Shown here: piece after piece, positions 5,221 to 19,219 of the stretch
How the letters are laid out: each line of letters begins with the position of its first letter
Numbering within the stretch: the first letter of the stretch is position 1
Assembly: GCA_006384855.1 (NCBI GenBank)
Contig: VCJN01002909.1
Span: 62,001-126,000, forward strand
Length of the DNA: 64,000 nucleotides
Source of the DNA: Tetraselmis striata
Lineage: Eukaryota; Chlorophyta; Chlorodendrophyceae; Chlorodendrales; Chlorodendraceae
Direction: 5' to 3'
Position numbers and translations under genes: made by a program
Notes under the pieces: generated by a model
The model's input: only the letters and a program-made list of their open reading frames with translations
Told to the model about the DNA's origin: nothing
Database searches by the model: none

Positions 5221-6957
<1,737 letters not shown>

Positions 6958-7097
6958 GGCACCGTCGGGATTTGCGGCGCACGGACAAGCCCGCGCACGC
7001 GGCATGGTGAGAAGGTTTCCGGTCTTTTAGCAGACTTTTTGCGGGTTTCCAGCCGCAGCCGCATCGCCGGTCCACATGCATCGGCGCAAGCGGGCCG

Positions 7098-9457: not shown

Positions 9458-10559
9458 ATGAAGATCGACGGAACCCCCTATCGCGCGATCTGGCCGGGTG
9501 AAGACGGCGTCAGCGCCTGCATCATCGACCAGACACGGCTGCCGCATGAATTCGTCACCGTGGATCTGCGCAGCGTCGACGAGGCGGCCACCGCCATTCG
9601 CGACATGTGGGTGCGCGGCGCGCCGCTGATCGGCGCCACCGCCGCCTACGGCATGGCGCTGGCGATGCAGCGCGACGCGGGCGACGCCGCGCTTGCCGCC
9701 GCCTATGACACGCTGATCGCAACGCGGCCGACCGCAATCAACCTGAAATGGGCGCTCGATGCCGCCCGTGCCCGTCTGGCGCCGCTCGGCCAGGCGGAGC
9801 GCGCGGAGGCCGCTTGGCGCTTCGCCGCCGAGCTCTGCGACGAGGACGTCGCCGTCAACCACGCCATCGGCGCACACGGTCTCGACCTGATCCGCGAGAT
9901 CGCCGCGAAAAAAGAAGCCCGGCGAGCGCGTCAACGTGCTGACCCATTGCAATGCCGGCTGGATCGCCACCGTCGACTGGGGCACCGCCACTTCGCCGAT
10001 CTATCAGGCGCATGATGCGGGGATCGACGTGCATGTCTTCGTCGACGAGACCCGGCCGCGCAACCAGGGCGCCAGCCTGACGGCTTGGGAGCTTGGCAAA
10101 CACGGCGTGCCGCACACGCTGATCGTCGACAATGCCGGCGGCCACCTGATGCAGCACGGCCAGGTCGACATGGTCATCACCGGCACCGACCGCACCACGC
10201 GGCAGGGCGACGTGTGCAACAAGATTGGCACCTATCTCAAGGCGCTGGCGGCGAAGGACAACGGCATTCCCTTCTATGTCGCGCTGCCCTCCTCCACCAT
10301 CGACTGGACCGTGCGCGACGGCGTGCGCGAGATCCCGATCGAGGAGCGCAGCGGCGAGGAAGTCACCTGGATCCAGGGCCGGCGCGCCGACGGCACGCTC
10401 GACAAGGTGCTGATCTCGCCGCCGGACACGCCCGCCGCCAATCCCGCCTTCGACGTGACCCCGGCGCGTCTGGTCACCGGCCTGATCACCGAACGCGGCA
10501 TCTGCGCGGCCAGCGCCGAAGGCCTCGCCGGCCTCTTCCCGGAGCGCGCGGTGGCATAG
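9458..10559 (+). CDS. mtnA: S-methyl-5-thioribose-1-phosphate isomerase
   Basis: Methionine salvage enzyme converting methylthioribose-1-phosphate to methylthioribulose-1-phosphate, a step in recycling the methylthioadenosine left by SAM-consuming reactions. Family motifs: [36 protein letters not shown] with the catalytic cysteine, [12 protein letters not shown] and [20 protein letters not shown] with the catalytic Asp. About 366 residues. One extra A in a run of six (near 9908-9913) shifts the frame; removing one A from the run joins the two halves exactly. Lies just upstream of the ArgRS-like gene. The salvage function may matter if the neighbouring cluster uses SAM as an alkyl donor. Confidence 0.93.
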
Positions 10560-10640
10560 CGCGGCACGGCTTGCCTAATCGACCGAAGGTTGCAAAACTG
10601 ATCCGGACACGCGTCTTTTCGCGTCTTTCGGAACGGATCG

Positions 10641-12350
10641 ATGACCCAGGCCCCGAAAACGGCACAGGAGAGCGGCGGCATCGCGGATCCGGGCGGCCCG
10701 CTCGGCGCGGGCGCCCTGTCGGCGCTCGTCGAGGCCGGGCTTGAGGCTGCCGTCGGCGCGCTCGACCGGCAGACCGACTTTCGCCGCTCCCCGCAAGGTG
10801 CCGCCGACGTCTCCGTCATCCTCAAGGGCCGCGTCGACGGCGCGGCCCGCACGGCCCTGACGGCGGTCTTCGAGGCCTGGCCGGCGGTTGCAAGCGCGCG
10901 GCTTTCCAAAAACCGGCTGACGCTGCGCTTCACCGAGGAGACAGTGCAGCGCGTCGCCGACGGTCTCGCCTTGCATCGGCGCGATCCCTTGCGGCTTGCC
11001 GGCACCGCCTCGGGCAGGCGGATTGTCGTCGACTATCTCGATCCCAACGCCAACAAGGCGCTCCATGTCGGCCACCTGCGCAACATCGCGCTCGGCGGCG
11101 CGCTTGCCGCGCTGTGGCGGGCACGCGGCGCCGAGGTCGCCTGCCAGAGCGTCGTCTGCGACATCGGCCGCAACATCGCCGAGGCACTGGCCGGCGTTTC
11201 GGCTGCGGGCGGACTGTCTGCGCTTAAGGGCAGCGGCCCCGTCGACCGGATTGTCGGCAGGCTTTACGGCGACATCGCAGGCGCCGTCGTGACTGAAGAG
11301 GGCGGCGCGGACGCCGACGCGCCGATCGCGCGCGAACTGACGCTGCATGGCGATGCCGCCGATGCGACGCTCGCCGCCTGGCGGGCGGGCGATCCGGCAA
11401 CGCTCGCCCTGTGGCGGGACATGATCGATCTCGTCTTGCGCGACCAGGCGGCGACGCTCGCCCGCCTCGGCCAGCGCCACGACATCTTCCTGCGCGAATC
11501 GGAGGCGGTCGGGCCCGCGCTGGCGCTGGCGGACCGGCTGATCGACGTCGGTCTGGCACGGCGCGAGGACGACGGCGTGGTGATCCTGGAAACCGGGCGC
11601 GACGACTACCCGCGCTGCCCGCTGACCCGCAGCGACGGCTTTGCGACCGAACACCTGCGCGCGCTGGTTCTCTGGCTCGAGGCGGCACAGAGCGCATCGC
11701 CGGCCGACCGCATCCTGCATGTTATGGGCGAGGAATGGCTGACCAGCACCGAGATCCGCATCGATGCCTTGAAGGCGCTCGGCGCCGGACCGTTTTTCAA
11801 GCGCTACCGGATGCTGGCGCATCAGCTGGTGCGGCTCGACGGATCGACGATGAAATCGAGCACCGGCAACACGCTGTTGATCGACGACCTGCTTGATGCG
11901 CTCGCGACCGCCCTGCCGGCCGCGCTCGCCGCCCTGCCCGAAGAGGCGCGCGGCCAAGCCGTTGCGGCCGTGGCGCTGACGCCGTTCCTGATCGCGGAGG
12001 CGGGCGTTGCGCTGGAGATCGACCTCGCGACCCTCACCGATCCGGCGCGCAATCCGGGCTTCGATCTCGCGGCACTCGCGCTTGCCCCATCGGCAGAACC
12101 GGCAGCGCCTCTTGGAGCAGCGCCTCTTGGAGATGCCGGACGCTTCGCGCTGCTTCAGGGCGAGCGGCTTCGGCGGGTGCTGATCCAGGCCTGCGAGCGC
12201 GACGATCCGGTGGCGCCGGCGCGCTTCCTGGCACGCCTCGCGCAGGCCCGCCGCGACGGGGAGATCGGACCGGAAGCGAATGCGGTGCTGCAGCCGCAGG
12301 TAAGGGCGGCGATGATCGCCTGCGGCCTGCTGCCGGGCGTTGAGGCCTGA
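10641..12350 (+). CDS. Divergent arginyl-tRNA synthetase paralogue (class I aaRS-like)
   Basis: 569 residues with the ArgRS plan. There is an N-terminal additional domain (about 55-118), then IVVDYLDPNANKALHVGHLRN with the HIGH-type motif HVGH at 142-145. A KMSKS-like loop MKSSTGNTLLIDDLLD lies at about 404-419, followed by a degenerate DALR-type anticodon-binding domain (LQGERLRRVLIQACERDD) that is shorter and more alanine-rich than in housekeeping ArgRS. ATP-binding elements look intact, so it may still activate an amino acid. It is convergent with the 17859-12755 operon, whose content (amino-acid enzymes, a UGG tRNA-like gene) suggests a dedicated aaRS. Alternatives are a resistance copy of ArgRS, or a non-tRNA acyl ligase. 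Substrate unknown. Confidence 0.85.
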   Translation: MTQAPKTAQESGGIADPGGPLGAGALSALVEAGLEAAVGALDRQTDFRRSPQGAADVSVILKGRVDGAARTALTAVFEAWPAVASARLSKNRLTLRFTEETVQRVADGLALHRRDPLRLAGTASGRRIVVDYLDPNANKALHVGHLRNIALGGALAALWRARGAEVACQSVVCDIGRNIAEALAGVSAAGGLSALKGSGPVDRIVGRLYGDIAGAVVTEEGGADADAPIARELTLHGDAADATLAAWRAGDPATLALWRDMIDLVLRDQAATLARLGQRHDIFLRESEAVGPALALADRLIDVGLARREDDGVVILETGRDDYPRCPLTRSDGFATEHLRALVLWLEAAQSASPADRILHVMGEEWLTSTEIRIDALKALGAGPFFKRYRMLAHQLVRLDGSTMKSSTGNTLLIDDLLDALATALPAALAALPEEARGQAVAAVALTPFLIAEAGVALEIDLATLTDPARNPGFDLAALALAPSAEPAAPLGAAPLGDAGRFALLQGERLRRVLIQACERDDPVAPARFLARLAQARRDGEIGPEANAVLQPQVRAAMIACGLLPGVEA

Positions 12351-12512
12351 GGTTTCAAGACGGGCCCGCGAGACATCCCGACCGGCGCACGACCGGCACA
12401 CGACCGGCGACTTCTCCCCGCCCTGCCGTGCTGCGCGTCAAGCGCGCGGTCACACGCAAGTCGATCAATATTCGCAATTCAAAAGGCAATCTTCGCAAAA
12501 TCCGGTGCAAAA

Positions 12513-12529
12513 CTTGCAAAAGTTGCAAG
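12513..12529 (+). repeat. Perfect hairpin (CTTGCAA/TTGCAAG) downstream of the ArgRS-like gene
   Basis: Seven-bp stem with a 3-base AAG loop in an AT-richer pocket (12470-12530) about 160 bases after the ArgRS-like stop. No T run follows on either strand, so it is not a classical terminator. It may mark a transcript end or protein-binding site between the two convergent units. The rest of 12351-12630 holds no gene I can support. Confidence 0.4.
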
Positions 12530-12630
12530 TCCGCCCGGACAGGGTCACCGGCGGGCAGCGTCCGGCGCGCTTCGTGCCGATGCAGCCGCGGAAAAACCGG
12601 ACCAAGCCGGCCGGCCTTCCCGCGGCGCGG

Positions 12631-12675
12631 GTTTCTACAGGGCATCGTTTCCAGGGCATCATTTCCAGGGCATCA
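12631..12675 (-). repeat. Three tandem 14-16-base units downstream of the CCA-rich gene
   Basis: Read on the minus strand, the unit is GATGCCCTGGAAAT/C twice, then GATGCCCTGTAGAAAC. The units lie 80-120 bases past the stop of the small CCA-rich ORF, where an operon transcript could still run. Each unit is complementary over 10-11 bases to the loop of a hairpin in the tRNA insert (13310-13321). Role unknown. Confidence 0.6.
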
Positions 12676-12754
12676 CAGTTTGCGAAAGCGCAAGATCGCG
12701 CGCGTTCCGGTGCTGCGGCTATCGGACGACGGTCGCCCGCCGGCCGGTCAGGCC

Positions 12755-13087
12755 TTAGCGGGCTGGAACGGCATCGAACTTGGCGAGCGCGCCAGCGGCA
12801 ATTGGAGCCGAGCTGGCGATTGGCGCCGCATCACGCGCCAGTGGATGCGCCGCTGGTACAGCCAGATCGTCGAGATCCTTGGCTGGAACAGCGGGTGGCA
12901 TCGCGCCCGCTGGCACGCCCTTGCCCGCTGGAACGGCGGGTGGAGCTGCTGCCAGCTTTGGCATAGCGGCTGGAACACCAGACGCTGGTACAGACCGGTT
13001 CGCCATTGGCGCAGCGGTCTCGGAGAGACGCGCACTCGTCAACGCGAGCGCGGCCTTGATCTCCCGGATAGCCATCACTTTGTCCAT
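12755..13087 (-). CDS. Small Ala/Pro-rich protein with extreme CCA codon bias
   Basis: 110 residues: a helix-prone N-terminal third (MDKVMAIREIKAALALTSAR) and then a low-complexity region built on VPA and PPAVPA motifs. 34 residues are Ala and 16 Pro. I counted the proline codons: 14 CCA, 2 CCC, no CCG or CCT. The upstream operon gene at 13384-14172 has 19 prolines with 0 CCA (11 CCG, 7 CCC, 1 CCT). Both CCC codons directly follow a CCA in repeated CCA-CCC-GCY-GTT-CCA units. Valine use is also odd (4 GTT, 2 GTA, 2 GTG, 0 GTC). The ribosome site is near-ideal (AAGGAGGTGA, six bases before ATG), implying strong translation. It is last in the minus operon, 118 bases after the UGG tRNA-like gene. 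No family recognised; it could be a peptide precursor, a structural protein or a decoding sensor. Confidence 0.75.
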   Translation of the reverse strand: MDKVMAIREIKAALALTSARLSETAAPMANRSVPASGVPAAMPKLAAAPPAVPAGKGVPAGAMPPAVPAKDLDDLAVPAAHPLARDAAPIASSAPIAAGALAKFDAVPAR

Positions 13088-13128
13088 GATTTTTCACCTC
13101 CTTTCCTTCCCATGCAGGAAACTGGTCC

Positions 13129-13158
13129 GGCCTCCACCGGAGCGCGCTCCGGGAGGCC
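13129..13158 (-). promoter_or_regulatory. Strong stem-loop between the tRNA-like gene and the CCA-rich ORF
   Basis: GGCCTCC/GGAGGCC forms an outer 7-bp stem and CGGAG/CTCCG an inner 5-bp stem with a CGCG loop and a 2-base bulge. It lies about 40 bases upstream of the start of the small ORF and has no T run after it. A processing site or translation-control element is plausible. Confidence 0.55.
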
Positions 13159-13205
13159 GTGTCACATGTCGCGCGGCGTGCCGACACTGGCAGCGCGCGG
13201 AAAAA

Positions 13206-13393
13206 TGGCGCATCCGACGGGACTCGAACCCGCACCTACCAACTCCCAAAGCTGGTGCTCTTAAGCCGCGTAAAGTCCGCCGTTCCGGGATCCGGGTCGG
13301 GGTGGAATGACGATGCCCTGGTGAAATCATTCCCCAGTCGCCAGGCCTTCCAGGCGTTCCGCTGCAGCATTTTACCGGTTAAGCTACGGATGC
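13206..13393 (-). tRNA. tRNA-Pro(UGG)-like gene interrupted by a 112-nt insert at position 21/22
   Basis: With bases 13261-13372 removed, the minus strand folds into a complete 76-nt cloverleaf including an encoded CCA end. The acceptor GCATCCG/CGGATGC pairs 7/7. T8-A9 is followed by D stem GCTT/GAGC (one G-U pair) with the 8-base loop AACCGGTA. The anticodon stem CCAGC/GTTGG (one G-U) has loop TTTGGGA, so the anticodon is UGG with G37. The variable loop is TAGGT, the T stem GCGGG/CCCGT (one G-U) has loop TTCGAGT, and G is at 73. G1-C72 and G73 are not typical of bacterial tRNA-Pro (usually C1-G72, A73), so ProRS may not be its enzyme. Its first ten bases overlap the end of the upstream ORF, whose TAG stop is nucleotides 8-10 of the tRNA. 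Either an intron-bearing tRNA, a tRNA-like regulatory RNA, or a broken copy; the perfect acceptor stem argues against old decay. Confidence 0.75.
13261..13372 (-). other. 112-nt structured insert (possible intron) within the tRNA
   Basis: Sits exactly between the last D-loop base and the 3' strand of the D stem. On the minus strand it forms three local hairpins: CGCC-T-GG with loop AAGG, a longer one (GGGG..AATGA / TCATT..CCCC) with a 16-base loop holding CCAGGGCATC, and CCGG-ATC-CCGG. The bases CCGGTAAA across the 5' junction (13371-13378) can pair with TTTACGCGG near the 3' end of the insert (13266-13274) with a single bulged G. Too short for a normal group I or II intron. No terminal inverted repeats, and no clear target duplication beyond A residues. 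Confidence 0.65.
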
Positions 13394-14172
13394 ATTTGCC
13401 CCTTTTCGTCCTCAGGGGTCGGTTTTCGCGCGACGAAGACGACGTTCTCGCGCGCGTCGAGCGCGATGTAGTCGGGCGTTCCCGCGCGGTGAAAGAACTG
13501 CGCCTCCTCGACCTCCAGACCGGCCGCCCGCGCGGCGCGGGAGAGCACGTCGGGATCGAGCAGGTGCAGAAACCTCGGCAGCTCGCTGATCGTCGGATCG
13601 TCGGAGATCGCCGGAAGGTCATGACATTCGCCCGGCCACGGCACTCCGGCGGCGCGATTGGCCTCGTAGATCGCCCCGAACGCGCGAATGTTGGCGGCAT
13701 AGGGCGAGCCGGAAATCGACAGGAACCGGCCGCCCGGCTCCAGCCAGGCGGCGATTTTCTCAAAGCCCGTCTCGATCTCGGCGCCGCTGAGGAAATTGAG
13801 CAGGTTAGAGGCATGTACCAGCGACAGGCTGCCGGGCGCGAACTCGAGATCGGCGGGAAAGCCGCCGGGCACGAGATGCAGCCGCTGCGCGGTTCCCGCC
13901 GGCGCATCGCGCGCGGTTGCTTCCAGATGCGCCGGATCGATGTCATTGGCATGGACGGTGGCGCCGGCCTCTAGAGCTGCGTGGGTGGCGACGCCGAAGG
14001 CACAGCCGAGGTCGAGCACGGGACGGGACGCCCTGCCGGCCAGCTCCGCGAAGCGCCGGTTGATCTCGTTCAGCCGCGTCGTGGTGCGTCCACGCCGGTT
14101 TGCCGTCACCAGGCTCACTGCCTGCGGATCGCCGCTGTGTCCGTCTTTCGCCATCGCGCCCGCCTCGCTCAT
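13384..14172 (-). CDS. Class I SAM-dependent methyltransferase-fold enzyme
   Basis: 262 residues. The SAM motif I is RPVLDLGCAFGVATHAALEAG, followed by an acidic ribose-binding end (HANDIDPAHLE), motif LVPGGFPADLEFAPGSLSLV and WLEPGGRFL. It may methylate a small molecule. Some members of this fold cyclise SAM to azetidine-2-carboxylate (a proline analogue) with release of methylthioadenosine, and the nearby UGG tRNA, CCA-rich gene and mtnA make that worth testing; I cannot assign it from sequence. Start at 14172 because its ATG overlaps the preceding stop (ATGA) and a GAGAGG site lies just upstream. All 19 proline codons avoid CCA. Its stop lies inside the tRNA-like gene. Confidence 0.82.
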   Translation of the reverse strand: MSEAGAMAKDGHSGDPQAVSLVTANRRGRTTTRLNEINRRFAELAGRASRPVLDLGCAFGVATHAALEAGATVHANDIDPAHLEATARDAPAGTAQRLHLVPGGFPADLEFAPGSLSLVHASNLLNFLSGAEIETGFEKIAAWLEPGGRFLSISGSPYAANIRAFGAIYEANRAAGVPWPGECHDLPAISDDPTISELPRFLHLLDPDVLSRAARAAGLEVEEAQFFHRAGTPDYIALDARENVVFVARKPTPEDEKGQMHP

Positions 14173-15314
14173 GCGCTCAGCCTCTCGGCATAGGCGCGGT
14201 AGCGCGCCTGCAACTCGCCCGCCCAGTCGTCGACCTCGTCGACATGCATCTGCGCGCAATCATAGCCAAAGGCCTCTCGCAGCACGGCCATTTCCGCCGG
14301 CGCATAGACGATCGTGCCATCGGCGCGGATCTCGGAGATCCCTTCCACCGTCTGTCCGTCGAGATTGACGCGGATCGCCTCGTCCTGCGGCAGGCCATTG
14401 GGCAGGGCGAGGCGCACCTCGCCCTTGCCGACAAGCGCCGGATAGCCTCCGGGAAGCGCGTTTGGACCCGGCACATGCATGGGTTTTTGCGTGTCGGGCG
14501 CACTCAAGGCAGCGGTCACCGCGGCGACACCGGACGCGGCAACGATCTGGCCGGTGACCCCGCGCACGCGCTTGAACTCGCCAATGACGCTGGCAAACAG
14601 CGCCGTGTGATCGAGCGTGTCGGCGACCTCCGCGCCGTCGAGCAGGATGCTCAGCCGGTAGGGCGCCTCGCCCGGCGTTCCATAGGAGGAAATCGCATTG
14701 CAGGCGACATGATGGGCGACGAAGTGAACGGTCAGCTCTGCGCGCTCGACGCCGAGCTGGCGCGCTGCGGCACGGGTCAGCGTCGGCACGATGTTGGCGA
14801 TGTTGCCGCCGCCGACATCCGGCGCGAGACCGACCGTTGCAAGCGCGGAGTTCACCGCATCGGGGAAGGCGGCATTGACCACCAGCGCGGTGCTGCCGGC
14901 GGAGCGCACGGCGCGCATCAACGCCCGCGCGGTGGCGAGGTGATTGGGCAGCCACGGGCCGATGCGCGCGCGTTCCAGATGCCTGTAGGCCTCCGCCGGC
15001 AGCAGCCCGATTTCCCAGAAGGTCTGCAGGCTGGTGGCATTGACGATGATGTCCGGGCGGACCCGGTCGATCAGAGCGGCGCAGGCATCGGTCTGGAACA
15101 CATCGCAGGCCACCGCCTCGATGCGCGGATCGAACCCGAGACACAGCGCGGAGGTGATCGACAGGTTCACACGCTGGGACAGCGCGTCCGCGCGCCGCGC
15201 CGACACCGTGAGATCGAAGCGGTCGTCCATGCGCGACAGCAGATCGCAGACATGACCGCCGATCACACCGGCTCCGAAGATCAGGACACGGGTCCGTCTC
15301 GCCTTTTCTACCAT
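14169..15314 (-). CDS. Saccharopine-dehydrogenase-like NAD(P)-dependent oxidoreductase
   Basis: 381 residues with an N-terminal Rossmann site (RVLIFGAGVIGGHVCDLL) and the saccharopine/carboxynorspermidine dehydrogenase layout: RPDIIVNATSLQTFWEIGLL, then a mixed alpha-beta substrate domain (HFVAHHVACNAISSYGTPGE). Such enzymes reductively join or split amino-acid imines, which fits a pathway making a modified amino acid. Overlaps the HAD gene by 7 bases at its start and the SAM-enzyme gene by 4 at its end, so all are translationally coupled. Confidence 0.8.
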   Translation of the reverse strand: MVEKARRTRVLIFGAGVIGGHVCDLLSRMDDRFDLTVSARRADALSQRVNLSITSALCLGFDPRIEAVACDVFQTDACAALIDRVRPDIIVNATSLQTFWEIGLLPAEAYRHLERARIGPWLPNHLATARALMRAVRSAGSTALVVNAAFPDAVNSALATVGLAPDVGGGNIANIVPTLTRAAARQLGVERAELTVHFVAHHVACNAISSYGTPGEAPYRLSILLDGAEVADTLDHTALFASVIGEFKRVRGVTGQIVAASGVAAVTAALSAPDTQKPMHVPGPNALPGGYPALVGKGEVRLALPNGLPQDEAIRVNLDGQTVEGISEIRADGTIVYAPAEMAVLREAFGYDCAQMHVDEVDDWAGELQARYRAYAERLSA

Positions 15315-16381
15315 TGCATCGCCTCCATCACATGGTGCGGCATGACCCGCGCGCGCCTGGCAAGCCGGGCAAGCGCCTCGGCGCAGAAGGTTCCGCCGGC
15401 CCCGACATGAAGCTCGTCGGCATGCGAGCCGGCGCCGGTCACCAGGACGGTAACGATGCCAACGTCGCGGGCGCCGGCGATATCGGTCGCCAAAGTGTCG
15501 CCGATCATCACGACACGGCCCGGGTCGGCGACCCCGACGGCGTCGAGAGCGGCCGCGAACATGTCCGCGCCCGGCTTTCCGTAGATGCGCACCGTGCCGC
15601 CGAGCGACTGGTAGAGCGGCGCAAGCGCCCCGATGCCGAGATGAAGCGCGCCCGCGATGCGCACGCTGGTGTCGGCATTGGTCAGGATGAGCGGCAGGCC
15701 CGAGCGGGCGGCGGTGCGCAACAGCCGGCGGACCGCGATATCCGGCGCCGGCGGCGGCGCACCGGGGCGCGGATCGCCCTGGCCCAGAACGCCGAAGCCG
15801 AGCAACAGATCCGCCTCGTCGACGCTTGCCACGCATCGAAGCCCGGCGTCGCGCGCCCAGTCGCCGCCCGGCTGGGTCCCGACGATCAGGCACCGCAAGT
15901 CATCGCCGCCCCCGGCGCGCCGGCGCGCCACCTCGGCCGACAGATGCCCGAACGCCAGACCGCCGCCGGTGATCACCGCGTCATGAAGGTCCGATGCGAG
16001 CCCCTGCCCCTCGAGCAGGCGGGCCAGCTCGCCGCCGCGCCTGGAGGTGTTGGAGACAAGCGCTACCGGCACGCCCCGTGCCCTGAGCACTTTCAAGGCC
16101 TCGATGGCGGGCACAAACGCCCGCGCGCCGTCGGTGAGAACGCCCCAGACGTCGACCAGCGCGGCTAGCGGCGGAATTCCGGCGCCGGACGCCGGATCGA
16201 ACAGCGCGCCCAGCCCGGAAAGCGCCATGGCCTCAACCGGTTCCGCCGGCGCCTCCGCCATGGCGGGACGCGGTGCCGGGGCAACGCAAGCCCCGACCGC
16301 GCTCCGCACGCTGCGTGGCCGGAGCGCCGGCTGGATCGCGGTGGCGGTTTCGGCGACGCCCGCGCCGTCACGCCGGCTCAC
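15308..16381 (-). CDS. HAD-superfamily class IIA hydrolase (TIGR01459-like)
   Basis: About 357 residues from a GTG start that overlaps the aminotransferase stop (GTGA). The N-terminal 60 residues are Ala/Pro-rich and poorly conserved. HAD motifs follow: ALVDVWGVLTDG (nucleophile Asp; Trp where NagD proteins usually have the second Asp, as in the DVWGVL subfamily), VALVSNTSRRG, RIYGKPGADMFAAAL and VVMIGDTLATDIAGA. Likely a small-molecule phosphatase. An internal ATG at 16261 is an alternative start. Confidence 0.82.
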   Translation of the reverse strand: MSRRDGAGVAETATAIQPALRPRSVRSAVGACVAPAPRPAMAEAPAEPVEAMALSGLGALFDPASGAGIPPLAALVDVWGVLTDGARAFVPAIEALKVLRARGVPVALVSNTSRRGGELARLLEGQGLASDLHDAVITGGGLAFGHLSAEVARRRAGGGDDLRCLIVGTQPGGDWARDAGLRCVASVDEADLLLGFGVLGQGDPRPGAPPPAPDIAVRRLLRTAARSGLPLILTNADTSVRIAGALHLGIGALAPLYQSLGGTVRIYGKPGADMFAAALDAVGVADPGRVVMIGDTLATDIAGARDVGIVTVLVTGAGSHADELHVGAGGTFCAEALARLARRARVMPHHVMEAMQW

Positions 16382-17859
16382 AGCGCCACCCCCTGTCCGG
16401 TCGCGAATGCAGCCGCAGCGGACCGTTGCCGCCGCGATCGCGCCACCTCGGGCGCCTGGCCCAGCAGCCGGAATACCGCAGGCTCGATGCGTTCGGCGAA
16501 GGTGGAGGAGATCAGGTCCCGCGCCCGGGCAAAGCCGCCGTCGAAGGCGCGTTCCTGCTCCTCGCCCCAGCTATCGTCCTCCCGCGCCTCCCAGACCCTT
16601 GAGGCGTCATAGGTGAATTGCGTGCCGATGGAGGCCACATTTGCGCGCACGCGCGGACCGTCGAACCCGTGCGACAGGGCCGGCGCGAAGGCGACCTTCG
16701 CCTCGTTGAGGAACAGCCGCGTCAGATCCGCGCCATCGCGCGGCGCGCCACCGTCCGAGAGATCGTGACCGGCAAGACAGGGAAACTCGAGCAGCACCGA
16801 GTGTCCGGCCTCCACCTCGTGTCCGACCGTCACCATGGGAGCGTTCAGCCGCGTCGCCGTGCGCAGCCGCGCGTCCAGACCGCGCACCAGATCGCAGACG
16901 AGCGCGATCCGCCGCTGGCACTCCTCGACATTGCGCCGGGAGAAAAGCGCCGGCGCGCGCAGGGCGCCAAGGGCGGCCGCCTTGGCGACATGGGGAATGC
17001 TGGCCGCGCTGCTGGTCACATAGTCCTGGAGCGCGCCGATCAGCCATTGCGGGCCGCACCCCCAGCCGATCCTGAGATTGGCCAGGCAATGCAGCTTGCT
17101 GGCACCGGCGACCGTGAGGCAGCGCTCGCCCGCCGGCGAAGCGGCCAGACGGCCACCGGTCTTGTCGGGGTCGTGTTCGGAACCGGCAAACAGCGCATCC
17201 TCGATGGCCAGCATGTCCGCCCCGACCAGAACCTCGCCGAGATCATCCAGCTCGTCCTGGCTGTAGACGGCGCCGGTCATCGTCGGATTGAAGAGAACGA
17301 GAAGCGGGGGCGTTGCAGGCCGTGTTTGGACGAGCCAGTCCCTGAGGTCCTGCGCGCAGAGCTTGTAGGCGCACGCCCTGGAGGTCGGCAGCACATGCAA
17401 CGGCCGATCAAGGTAGCCGCACCAGCCGGCAAGCGGATGATAGAAGCCCGGCGAAGTGACGACCTCCGCCCCGCCGCGGCTCATCAGGCCAAGAGCGGCC
17501 ACCATCAGGCGCGTCGACCCGGCGTCGAGCACGACATTGCCCGCGAACTCGGGCGGAACGCCGTTGCGGCAGAAGTTTTTGGAAATTTCCACCTCGAGAT
17601 CGGGGAAGCGCCGCAGGAACATGTAGTTCTCGATCGGCGCGCCTTGCGCGTCATGCAACGCCTCGACCGCCTTGCGTATGGCACCGGGAAACGGCCGACG
17701 CACGCCTTCGCCATGAGCGAACGACACGACATCCGCATCGAACATGCCCGGCCCGATGCGCGCCCCGTCCTCCCCCACACCCATGAGGGCAAGCCGGGCA
17801 CGATGCAGCCGCTGGGCCGCAGGGCCATCCAGGGGGCCGGTCACACGGTCACACATCAT
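16378..17859 (-). CDS. Fold-type I PLP-dependent aminotransferase (class I/II)
   Basis: 493 residues, first gene of the minus operon. The PLP lysine is in GASKLHCLANLRIGWG, the Asn in LVLFNPTMTGAVYS, the Asp in LAIEDALFAGSEHD, and the substrate Arg near GPRVRANVAS. The layout resembles ACC-synthase/aspartate-aminotransferase-like enzymes that act on amino acids or, in some subfamilies, on SAM. Two consecutive ATG codons open the gene; I use the first. It probably starts the amino-acid chemistry of the cassette. Upstream lies an AT-rich promoter region. Confidence 0.85.
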   Translation of the reverse strand: MMCDRVTGPLDGPAAQRLHRARLALMGVGEDGARIGPGMFDADVVSFAHGEGVRRPFPGAIRKAVEALHDAQGAPIENYMFLRRFPDLEVEISKNFCRNGVPPEFAGNVVLDAGSTRLMVAALGLMSRGGAEVVTSPGFYHPLAGWCGYLDRPLHVLPTSRACAYKLCAQDLRDWLVQTRPATPPLLVLFNPTMTGAVYSQDELDDLGEVLVGADMLAIEDALFAGSEHDPDKTGGRLAASPAGERCLTVAGASKLHCLANLRIGWGCGPQWLIGALQDYVTSSAASIPHVAKAAALGALRAPALFSRRNVEECQRRIALVCDLVRGLDARLRTATRLNAPMVTVGHEVEAGHSVLLEFPCLAGHDLSDGGAPRDGADLTRLFLNEAKVAFAPALSHGFDGPRVRANVASIGTQFTYDASRVWEAREDDSWGEEQERAFDGGFARARDLISSTFAERIEPAVFRLLGQAPEVARSRRQRSAAAAFATGQGVAL

Positions 17860-18163
17860 GCCACCACCGAAAATCTCTATTAAATTGTATAATTTACTTA
17901 TACTCGTTATACGATCACAAACAGTCTATGCACGCAACTCATTTGTGACCCAGCGTCAAATTCGTATCCTGAATCTTGCACTCTGAAAAAATTTTCTAAA
18001 TCTTGCTTATATTCCGCAACGTCGCCTGGCAGGACATAGGCAGACGAAACCATACGGAAAAGCGGGCCGCGACTTGGCAAGCGTCCCGATCGCAGTTCCT
18101 TCTTGCAACGGACCGTTTGTGTGGCGAGTGTACCGCTTCCGCAGTCCCCTTCTGGAGATCCGC
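17860..18163. promoter_or_regulatory. Divergent promoter region with AT-rich core and palindrome
   Basis: 304 bases without a gene between the aminotransferase operon (minus) and the dipeptidase (plus). Bases 17875-18015 are strikingly AT-rich for this genome. A perfect inverted repeat TAAATT-GTAT-AATTTA lies at 17881-17896, 22 bases from the aminotransferase start. On the minus strand TTGTGA and TATAAG have -35/-10 character. The palindrome is a good operator candidate. Confidence 0.5.
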
Positions 18164-19219
18164 ATGCGCCGCGACCTCGTGCCCGTCTTCGACGGACACA
18201 ACGACACCTTGCTGAAACTGGAGTTGGGCGCCGGAACCCCGCGCGAACGCTCGTTCCTCGCCCGCGCCGAGCGCGATCACATCGACCTGCCGCGCGCCCG
18301 CGAAGGCGGCTTTGCCGGCGGGCTGTTTGCAATGTATGTGCCCTCGCGCACGGGGCTCGATCTCACGGTTCGCTACAATCCGAACGATCCGGCGAATTTC
18401 GCGCCGGTCGCGCAGGAGGTCGCGCTGGGGTTCACGCTGCGCATGGCCGCGCGCGCCCGGCGGCTGGAACGCGAAGCCGCCGGCGCGGTCAGGATCTGCA
18501 CCGATGCGCCGGGCATCCGGCAGGCGATGGCCGACGGCGCACTTGCCATGGTGCTGCACATCGAGGGCGCGGAGGCGATCGACGCGGATTTCTGCGCGCT
18601 CGAGGTCTTGCATGCGGCGGGCCTGCGCTCGCTCGGTCCGGTGTGGAGCCGGCCGAACATCTTCGGCGACGGCGCGCCGATGACCTGCCCGTCCTCACCG
18701 GACACGGGACCGGGGTTGAGCGACGCCGGCAAGGCGCTGGTCAGGGCCTGCAACGCGCTCAAGATCATGATCGACCTGTCGCATCTAACCGAAAAGGGGT
18801 TCTGGGATGTGGCCGAGCTCAGCGACCGCCCGCTGGTCGCCTCCCACTCCAATGCCCATGCGGTCTGCCCGTCGGCGCGCAATCTCACCGACCGCCAGCT
18901 CGACGCCATCGCCGAGAGCAAGGGGCTGGCCGGCCTCAACTTCCACGTCGCCTTCCTCAGGCCGGACGGCGCCCACAAGGGCGACACGCCGCTGGAGCTG
19001 ATGGTGCGCCACACCGATCACATGCTGTCCAGGCTCGGCGAGGACGGGGTGGCGCTCGGGTCGGATTTCGACGGCTGTTTCGTGCCGCGCGCCATCGGCG
19101 ACGTCACCGGACTGCCGAAGCTGATCGAGGCGTTTCGCGCCGCCGGATACGGCGAGGACCTGATCGAGAAGATCGCCTGGCGCAACTGGCTCTCGGTGCT
19201 GGAACGCACCTGGGCATAG
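18164..19219 (+). CDS. Membrane dipeptidase (peptidase family M19)
   Basis: 351 residues. Metal-ligand motifs of renal-dipeptidase-type enzymes are present: VFDGHNDTLL (HxD), MVLHIEGAEAI (bridging Glu), VASHSNAHAVCPSARN (His) and ALGSDFDGCF (Asp). These zinc enzymes split dipeptides, including mixed-chirality ones. No signal peptide, so cytosolic. Start 18164 is the first ATG in frame with TGGAG upstream; the extra residues before it are not family-like. Divergent from the amino-acid-enzyme operon, so it could act on its peptide product, but this is only context. Confidence 0.88.
   Translation: MRRDLVPVFDGHNDTLLKLELGAGTPRERSFLARAERDHIDLPRAREGGFAGGLFAMYVPSRTGLDLTVRYNPNDPANFAPVAQEVALGFTLRMAARARRLEREAAGAVRICTDAPGIRQAMADGALAMVLHIEGAEAIDADFCALEVLHAAGLRSLGPVWSRPNIFGDGAPMTCPSSPDTGPGLSDAGKALVRACNALKIMIDLSHLTEKGFWDVAELSDRPLVASHSNAHAVCPSARNLTDRQLDAIAESKGLAGLNFHVAFLRPDGAHKGDTPLELMVRHTDHMLSRLGEDGVALGSDFDGCFVPRAIGDVTGLPKLIEAFRAAGYGEDLIEKIAWRNWLSVLERTWA

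Follow-up and report, generated by a model that had tools for sequence, protein, structure and literature searches.

A candidate cassette for a non-standard amino acid at the CCA codons of one small bacterial protein

A stretch of 64,000 nucleotides (nt) filed under Tetraselmis striata (assembly GCA_006384855.1, contig VCJN01002909.1, positions 62,001 to 126,000), called the window here, carries a compact gene cassette whose parts suggest a dedicated route to a non-standard amino acid. The cassette consists of genes for an aminotransferase, a HAD phosphatase, a dehydrogenase and an S-adenosylmethionine (SAM)-dependent methyltransferase, together with a transfer RNA (tRNA) gene with the anticodon UGG, an open reading frame (ORF) of about 110 amino acids (aa), and a convergent gene for a paralog of arginyl-tRNA synthetase (ArgRS) (Table 1). 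The four minus-strand enzyme genes overlap head to tail, with junctions of 4, 7, and 4 nt, and the ATG of the methyltransferase overlaps the stop of the dehydrogenase. Since the methyltransferase stop in the window lies inside the tRNA gene, the tight operon running into a UGG tRNA-like gene that was described in an earlier reading of the letters alone (the initial annotation) is borne out. The small ORF begins 118 nt beyond the tRNA gene and follows a strong Shine-Dalgarno sequence. Evidence for the terminator-like hairpin after it is weak because the region has two such sites when shuffled sequences average 4.5. The window itself is a bacterial contig of 64-71% GC within a 224-Mb, 2903-contig assembly of eukaryote size, so the bacterium is a companion or a contaminant. 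The cassette proteins share 97-100% identity with their counterparts in Stappia stellulata SN27-3 (locus L031), which we took as the reference host.

Table 1. Features of the cassette, in window coordinates
Feature	Position	Strand	Description and support
ArgRS paralog	10641-12350	+	569 aa; proposed synthetase for the special tRNA; convergent with the operon; HVGH, MKSS
Terminator-like hairpin after the small ORF	12600-12616	-	weak
Small ORF	12755-13087	-	110 aa; 14/16 prolines CCA; proposed recoded target
Shine-Dalgarno sequence AAGGAGGTGA	13094-13103	-	strong; AAGGAGGTG kept in 7 loci
Special tRNA gene	13206-13393	-	188 nt; anticodon UGG; encoded CCA end; cloverleaf pairs in 5/5 distinct sequences (RNAalifold, pair counts); partial Rfam match
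Anticodon TGG in loop TTTGGGA	13246-13248	-	loop TTTGGG[AG] in all aligned loci
Structured D-loop extension	13264-13374	-	arm of about 100 nt; covariation
Apical loop of the D-arm	13311-13326	-	invariant CCAGGGCATCG
SAM-dependent methyltransferase	13384-14172	-	262 aa; Methyltransf_25, 47.2 bits
NAD(P)-type dehydrogenase	14169-15314	-	381 aa; predicted fold like lactate/malate dehydrogenase
HAD-IIA type phosphatase	15308-16381	-	357 aa; GTG start; NCBIfam TIGR01459, 118.3 bits (cut-off 103.75)
Pyridoxal phosphate (PLP) enzyme, aminotransferase class I/II fold	16378-17859	-	493 aa; first operon gene; Pfam PF00155, 49.4 bits

The full cassette was found at eight loci, namely the window and seven genomes, which fall into the lineages Stappia, Oceaniradius, and Alkalicaulis. 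Protein searches returned 44 relatives of the ArgRS paralog (scored among only the 7998 candidates with the most words in common) and eight of the small-ORF protein, and a scan of a species-genome collection with an alignment of the paralog gave 13 loci. The complete set of four enzymes, tRNA, and ORF is present at six of these, namely L031-L034 (from three Stappia genomes and one metagenome-assembled genome named Rhodobacteraceae), L035 (Oceaniradius), and L036 (Alkalicaulis). At the other seven, which are Planctomycete and Actinobacterial, no other cassette protein was detected by tblastn at 1e-4. A pattern of the 3′ half of the tRNA, allowing at most three mismatches, matched 6 of the 12 genomes with paralog loci, exactly the six cassette genomes, and located a seventh genome (G470, locus L115) in which tRNA, ORF, four enzymes, and paralog are all present. 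Because this pattern matched few genomes in each taxon set (5/87 in the host family, 1/394 in the Oceaniradius family, 1/299 in the Alkalicaulis order, and 1/385 in the class; these are overlapping sets, the larger of them sampled, and each single match is an already known genome), the cassette is rare and patchy, and it is complete in 8/8 loci where it was seen. In the window, L033, L036, and L115, the tRNA gene has the methyltransferase stop within its first 10 nt; in L034 and L035, the stop precedes the gene. The initial annotation had proposed a search for genomic co-occurrence and named relatives with the enzymes but without tRNA and ORF as the finding that would speak against it. Enzymes, tRNA, CCA-rich ORF, and paralog occur together in 7/7 other cassette genomes, which is more than chance, and no relative of the contrary kind turned up, tRNA and ORF both being kept in 7/7 genomes with the four enzymes. 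An artifact of one genome is ruled out by the eight loci. A mobile element or phage gained no support as an explanation, with no exact match to the tRNA pattern in viral contigs and no match to the ArgRS paralog in plasmids; the phage collection lay outside this search.

The small ORF treats CCA as something apart from the other proline codons. The count of 14 CCA among 16 prolines reported at the outset stands, and the corresponding figures are 14/16 in L031 and L032, 14/15 in L033 and L115, 15/17 in L034, 15/19 in L035, and 11/12 in L036, a share of 79-93% across loci. By comparison, the CCA share is 5.5% (47/861 proline codons) when 31 long window ORFs are counted and 4.2-6.8% at seven other loci. 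Among 36 aligned Pro-Pro codon pairs from the window, L035, and L036 (three pairwise comparisons among lineages, hence not independent), there were 0 switches between CCA and another proline codon; shuffling the labels within each ORF gave a mean of 8.9 switches and reached zero in 1 of 20,000 trials. In all seven ORFs compared, each non-CCA proline stands directly after a CCA and no CCA follows a CCA, an order seen in 0 of 20,000 shuffles of the three-lineage ORFs. The non-CCA columns drift among CCC, CCT, and CCG and among the residues S, A, L, and V, and the CCA columns remain CCA wherever proline is kept. For other synonymous-box codons encoding the same residue, only 13/35 are identical between the window and L035 and 10/27 between the window and L036. 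With synonyms available and no switches across lineages, CCA behaves as a different residue, and such an unmixed codon class is the pattern that a separate amino acid would produce. An attenuator or leader ORF was also considered and is not favored, as the ORF is last in the operon and spans 97-113 aa.

Since CCA reads as TGG on the opposite strand, a tryptophan-rich antisense gene could also freeze it, Trp having a single codon. A frame in the required register is indeed open in 6/7 loci, but the substitutions between the window and L034 number 10, 6, and 33 at sense positions 1, 2, and 3, conservation is higher for sense than for antisense residues in 7/7 pairs compared, the Alkalicaulis antisense frame contains a stop, and the start and Shine-Dalgarno sequence are on the sense strand. 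These observations largely refute an antisense gene, which we consider scarcely credible. A second proposal would leave CCA as proline and ascribe its conservation to translational control through slow decoding or pausing, with the synthetase, tRNA, and enzymes serving a tRNA-dependent natural product alongside. In its favor, the reference host has a normal tRNAPro(UGG), CCA is a rare codon that may be decoded slowly, and paralogs of aminoacyl-tRNA synthetases (aaRSs) are known in natural-product pathways (PMC9437257). Relatives of the paralog in Conexibacter also sit with methyltransferases and an ATP-grasp enzyme having an L-amino-acid-ligase C-domain match, and no codon-biased ORF was found at these or the Planctomycete loci in a scan swamped by shadow ORFs. 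Translational control does not account well for 0/36 switches combined with a strict CCA-then-other order in every proline doublet, nor for the difference between non-CCA columns, in which the residue changes (S, A, L, V), and CCA columns, in which it rarely does. Searches with Pfam and NCBIfam also recognized no aminoacyl-tRNA-using transferase among the cassette proteins, although unfamiliar transferases would escape them. We regard this proposal as quite improbable and continue with a separate amino acid, X, at the CCA codons.

The tRNA gene is 185-188 nt long across loci, and ARAGORN reported no tRNA at this site. Rfam covers part of it at 29.5 bits (gathering threshold 29). Both results are explained by about 111 extra nt in the D-loop, and the gene is thus a concrete bacterial tRNA missed by a standard finder. 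The acceptor, D, anticodon, and T stems of a 7-4-5-5 cloverleaf are 100% paired in five sequences. Applied to these sequences, which represent three lineages, RNAalifold gave the tRNA stems and a single long arm leaving the D-loop after G18G19, with an anticodon stem drawn longer than five pairs. The initial annotation had called the tRNA split, which does not hold, in that the locus has one tRNA with a long structured D-arm in place of two genes. In the specified structure 96.4% of cells pair, as opposed to 37-45% when it is slid along the alignment, and changes on both sides of a pair fill 15 cells against 6.1 in shuffles, with 0 of 500 shuffles reaching 15. Nine of the 45 pairs changed on both sides, eight of them in the D-arm; this covariation comes from five sequences in three lineages and was scored on the alignment that had also yielded the structure. 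Acceptor pair 6:67 also changed from C-G to U-A between lineages with pairing kept. A broken tRNA or attachment-site remnant is ruled out by the conserved cloverleaf stems and the covarying arm.

Compared with the tRNAs of the reference host, the acceptor end and the anticodon loop resemble tRNAs of different amino acids. Over 15 bases, the acceptor end matches host tRNAArg(CCG) at 13 positions, tRNAArg(ACG) at 11, and tRNAPro(UGG) at 1. The special tRNA has G1:C72 and G73, and the three host tRNAPro species have C1:G72 and A73. The anticodon loop UUUGGGA, on the other hand, is identical to that of host tRNAPro(UGG). Because the host carries its own tRNAPro with UGG, CGG, and GGG anticodons (checked in the reference host only), the special tRNA is an extra one. 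By these matches it resembles tRNAArg at the acceptor end and tRNAPro at the anticodon loop, and an arm of about 100 nt extends its D-loop. The initial annotation had left loading to the aaRS or to ProRS, and of these the Arg-like acceptor end points to the ArgRS paralog and not to ProRS. ArgRS normally reads the D-loop of its tRNA, and the long D-arm that replaces this region may be the identity element of the special tRNA. A separate observation concerns the apical loop of the arm, whose invariant CCAGGGCATCG contains GCATC. These bases repeat the 5′ acceptor strand of this tRNA and might, if the molecule folded in another way, pair with its 3′ acceptor strand.

The proposed partner of this tRNA has the full-length class I ArgRS fold (Pfam PF00750) and scores 89.4 bits against the NCBIfam argS model, below its cut-off of 261.65. 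The description of an ArgRS paralog facing the operon with an intact HVGH motif and a KMSKS-like loop proved correct, the latter reading MKSS. Across 43 aligned family members, H142, H145, and S406 are kept in 43/43 and K405 in 36/43. The amino acid pocket is another matter. At the positions of yeast Tyr347, Asp351, and Gln375, which we take to be the residues contacting the arginine side chain, the family has E (32), Q (8), H (2), or L (1); A (32), G (3), V (3), Y (2), T (2), or H (1), never an acidic residue; and W in 43/43, as counted by hand on the alignment. In the canonical ArgRS enzymes compared, Tyr and Asp are kept in 3/3. By this alignment the arginine pocket of the synthetase is altered, a change in line with a non-standard amino acid. 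The genomes examined, three of them with the cassette, also encode a canonical ArgRS as a distinct gene in 4/4 cases, and the reference host is among those with the normal enzyme. As an observation apart, at L038-L042 (Conexibacter/Actinomycetota, positions around 9690-14460) genes of this ArgRS-like family have a tRNAArg(UCU) gene directly upstream. SAM methyltransferases, one or two of them, come next, along with an ATP-grasp enzyme whose C-terminal part weakly matches an L-amino-acid ligase. As judged from its genes, this set is another tRNA-linked cassette.

Programmed mistranslation must be weighed at this point. The pair would then put a standard residue such as Arg at CCA, much like the Streptomyces pair ProRSx/tRNAProX, and the enzymes would be unrelated. 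That pair offers a precedent for an aaRS paralog beside a tRNA of mismatched body and anticodon (PMC10365949), the acceptor end of the special tRNA is Arg-like, and one CCA column is CGC (Arg) in Alkalicaulis. A basic helix in the ORF product, with Arg in place of X, was considered by eye and given no weight. The pocket positions for arginine are nevertheless changed in the 43 aligned family members, the linkage of four enzymes in all eight loci would be left unexplained, and the ProRSx precedent has no dedicated target ORF (PMC10365949). Mistranslation with a standard residue is therefore distinctly doubtful, and incorporation of X remains the preferred reading.

The four enzymes would be the source of X, and their families only hint at its structure. 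The best NCBIfam match of the aminotransferase is an aspartate transaminase model at 61.5 bits (cut-off 617), with weaker likeness to GntC (46.2 bits, cut-off 415) and to the capreomycidine synthase VioD (41.9 bits, cut-off 390.9). Its SK motif aligns with that of the aspartate aminotransferase 6f77, and the lysine of this motif is presumably the catalytic one. GntC and capreomycidine synthase both act on arginine derivatives. X may perhaps derive from arginine, but the VioD/GntC likeness is weak and aspartate aminotransferase models score higher. The label of a saccharopine-dehydrogenase-like enzyme in the initial annotation has to be dropped, as that family match is below its cut-off (20.3 vs 25.1 bits) and the predicted structure matches the lactate/malate dehydrogenase fold among the families listed by the fold comparison. 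In Oceaniradius (L035), the aminotransferase and HAD phosphatase form a single 774-aa reading frame, and this fusion ties both enzymes to one pathway. Paralogs of the dehydrogenase with 41-43% identity occur at L116-L118, and no ArgRS-like gene, tRNA, or ORF was found near them. One of them (41%; L117:3871-7957), in a genome without the tRNA cassette, is near an alanine racemase (Pfam) and a relative of the HAD phosphatase (31% identity). Part of the chemistry may thus be shared, which does not reveal X.

The same enzymes could act later, after the synthetase. tRNA-dependent formation is known for Sec, Gln, and Cys, and in a pretranslational route of this kind the paralog would load an ordinary or simple precursor that the enzymes convert on the tRNA, with the D-arm as a docking handle. 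The large, conserved, structured arm is superfluous for normal decoding, enzymes and tRNA are joined in one operon, a PLP enzyme and a phosphatase are both present, and the methyltransferase scores 17.0 bits against FtsJ RNA methyltransferases, a likeness below the threshold of 24.1. However, the enzymes resemble small-molecule families (aspartate aminotransferase and the lactate/malate dehydrogenase fold), no Pfam RNA-binding domain was found at its cut-off in the cassette proteins, and the synthetase pocket is changed in place of being kept for Arg. We judge conversion on the tRNA unlikely and favor synthesis of X ahead of its attachment.

We therefore propose, with a probability of roughly 0.6, that a non-standard amino acid X enters one small protein at its CCA codons through this cassette, which would form a self-contained system. 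This would be a natural expansion of the genetic code at a sense codon by an ArgRS-derived orthogonal synthetase and a giant-D-arm tRNA, with X outside the known 22 amino acids and at most 15 CCA positions. The proposal builds on the conservation of the unit, CCA as its own codon class, the tRNA structure, and the altered pocket, all of which are read from the sequences themselves. The aminotransferase, phosphatase, dehydrogenase, and methyltransferase would, to judge by their families, make X, perhaps an arginine-related compound. The ArgRS paralog would activate X and attach it to the special tRNA, recognizing the Arg-like acceptor end and probably the D-arm. This tRNA would be cut from the operon transcript, and its UGG anticodon is expected to read CCA. 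The CCA codons of the ORF would then be read as X, and CCA elsewhere would stay proline with tolerated ambiguity.

Several observations weigh against this proposal. In the cassette genomes, CCA occurs at about 2 per 1000 codons and accounts for 107/2587 prolines (4.1%) in ten 20-kb stretches, three of the five cassette proteins contain one CCA each, and the reference host has the normal tRNAPro(UGG) noted above. Relatives without the cassette have 170/2171 (7.8%) in ten stretches, or 115/2029 (5.7%) without one low-GC stretch; GC-matched stretches overlap, and so there is no clear depletion of CCA in the cassette genomes (no statistical test was applied). The tRNA evidence is mixed as well, in that tRNAThr(GGT) matches the acceptor end at 10/15 and no family stands out when the whole body without the insert is compared (Lys 0.74, Arg(ACG) 0.73, Arg(CCG) and Pro(GGG) 0.70). 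Within the ORF alignment, one CCA column is CGC (Arg) in L036 and one is Thr in P0050 (protein only), a further column shows CCA in two lineages and elsewhere Met/Leu, and at columns 68-70, a poorly aligned repeat, the L035 sequence is shifted. These exceptions at CCA columns do not, by their residues, name X. Finally, only three independent lineages are known. Full reassignment of CCA is ruled out, given that it is still an ordinary proline codon genome-wide and that the reference host has its normal tRNAPro(UGG). It follows that competition at CCA must be tolerated or controlled: CCA codons elsewhere must tolerate some X, or X-tRNA must be scarce except when the operon is on. Such scarcity agrees with the placement of tRNA and ORF together on one transcript, since X-tRNA would be abundant mainly during translation of the ORF. 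The suggestion that a non-standard amino acid is placed at CCA has thus gained from the conservation of CCA as a codon and the changed pocket, and it is qualified by the use of CCA elsewhere and the normal tRNAPro(UGG).

The surroundings of the cassette provided further observations. An M19 membrane-dipeptidase gene (18074-19219, plus strand) adjoins it in the Stappia-type loci (L031-L034 and L115) and was not found in L035 or L036. An IF-2B/mtnA-like gene (9458-10559, plus strand) and a pheS-like gene named by eye (about 6492-7064, minus strand) each appear split over frames in the window and are single frames of 367 and 360 aa, respectively, in the Stappia locus L034; both splits are possibly assembly errors. 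The neighborhood of the Oceaniradius cassette (L035:16958-20529) includes a lanthionine synthetase of the LanM type (DUF4135 and LANC_like), along with a small ORF that matches nitrile hydratase alpha below threshold.

If the proposal is true, the code would be extended in a new way, a sense codon of one gene being read as an amino acid that its own operon makes, and the case would show how a sense codon can be ambiguous yet tolerated. It would also supply a natural class I aaRS/tRNA pair for synthetic biology, with the D-arm as a possible identity element absent from the host tRNAs examined. The pyrrolysine system, in which PylRS, tRNAPyl, and PylBCD serve the stop codon UAG with a class II synthetase and target genes elsewhere, is organized similarly: a dedicated synthetase, a tRNA of unusual shape, and biosynthetic enzymes share one cluster, although for the cassette ribosomal use and amino acid synthesis are inferred. 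The cassette differs in its sense codon CCA and UGG anticodon (not UAG and CUA), its class I ArgRS-derived synthetase, its tRNA with a D-arm of about 100 nt, and the target ORF inside the operon. To our knowledge, Sec and Pyl are the only genetically encoded amino acids beyond the twenty, and both are typically placed at stop codons. Canonical ArgRS/tRNAArg shares with the cassette the full-length fold, HVGH, a KMSKS-like loop, and an acceptor end near that of tRNAArg(CCG), whereas in the cassette the positions for the arginine side chain are replaced, the D-loop has become a long arm, and the anticodon is UGG. SbzA and MshC (PDB) likewise show a duplicated class I synthetase fold in other chemistry, and we know of no tRNA gene of their own or codon-marked ORF for either. 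SbzA is an aaRS paralog acting outside translation, according to PMC9437257. That paper also covers the ProRSx/tRNAProX pair of Streptomyces, a case of deliberate mistranslation in which an aaRS paralog is found beside a tRNA that joins the body for one amino acid to the anticodon for another (PMC10365949). The likeness is in the synthetase paralog and the mixed tRNA. ProRSx is a ProRS paralog that keeps its amino acid and uses a tRNAPro body; the cassette has an ArgRS paralog with a changed pocket, an Arg-like acceptor end, linked biosynthetic enzymes, and one ORF shaped around the codon. The CysRS*/SelC* pair of Desulfobacterales similarly couples an aberrant synthetase with an aberrant, cysteine-loaded SelC-type tRNA, and enzymes for a new amino acid are not mentioned in the passage on this pair (PMC9437257). 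No described system of the present kind was found in searches of open-access full texts, a coverage that leaves out most subscription papers and all bioRxiv preprints. Because codon type, synthetase class, tRNA body, and amino acid pocket differ, the cassette as read from its genes belongs to neither the pyrrolysine nor the ProRSx/tRNAProX type. If our reading holds, it is categorically new, combining a cluster logic like that of pyrrolysine with unrelated parts and a sense codon.

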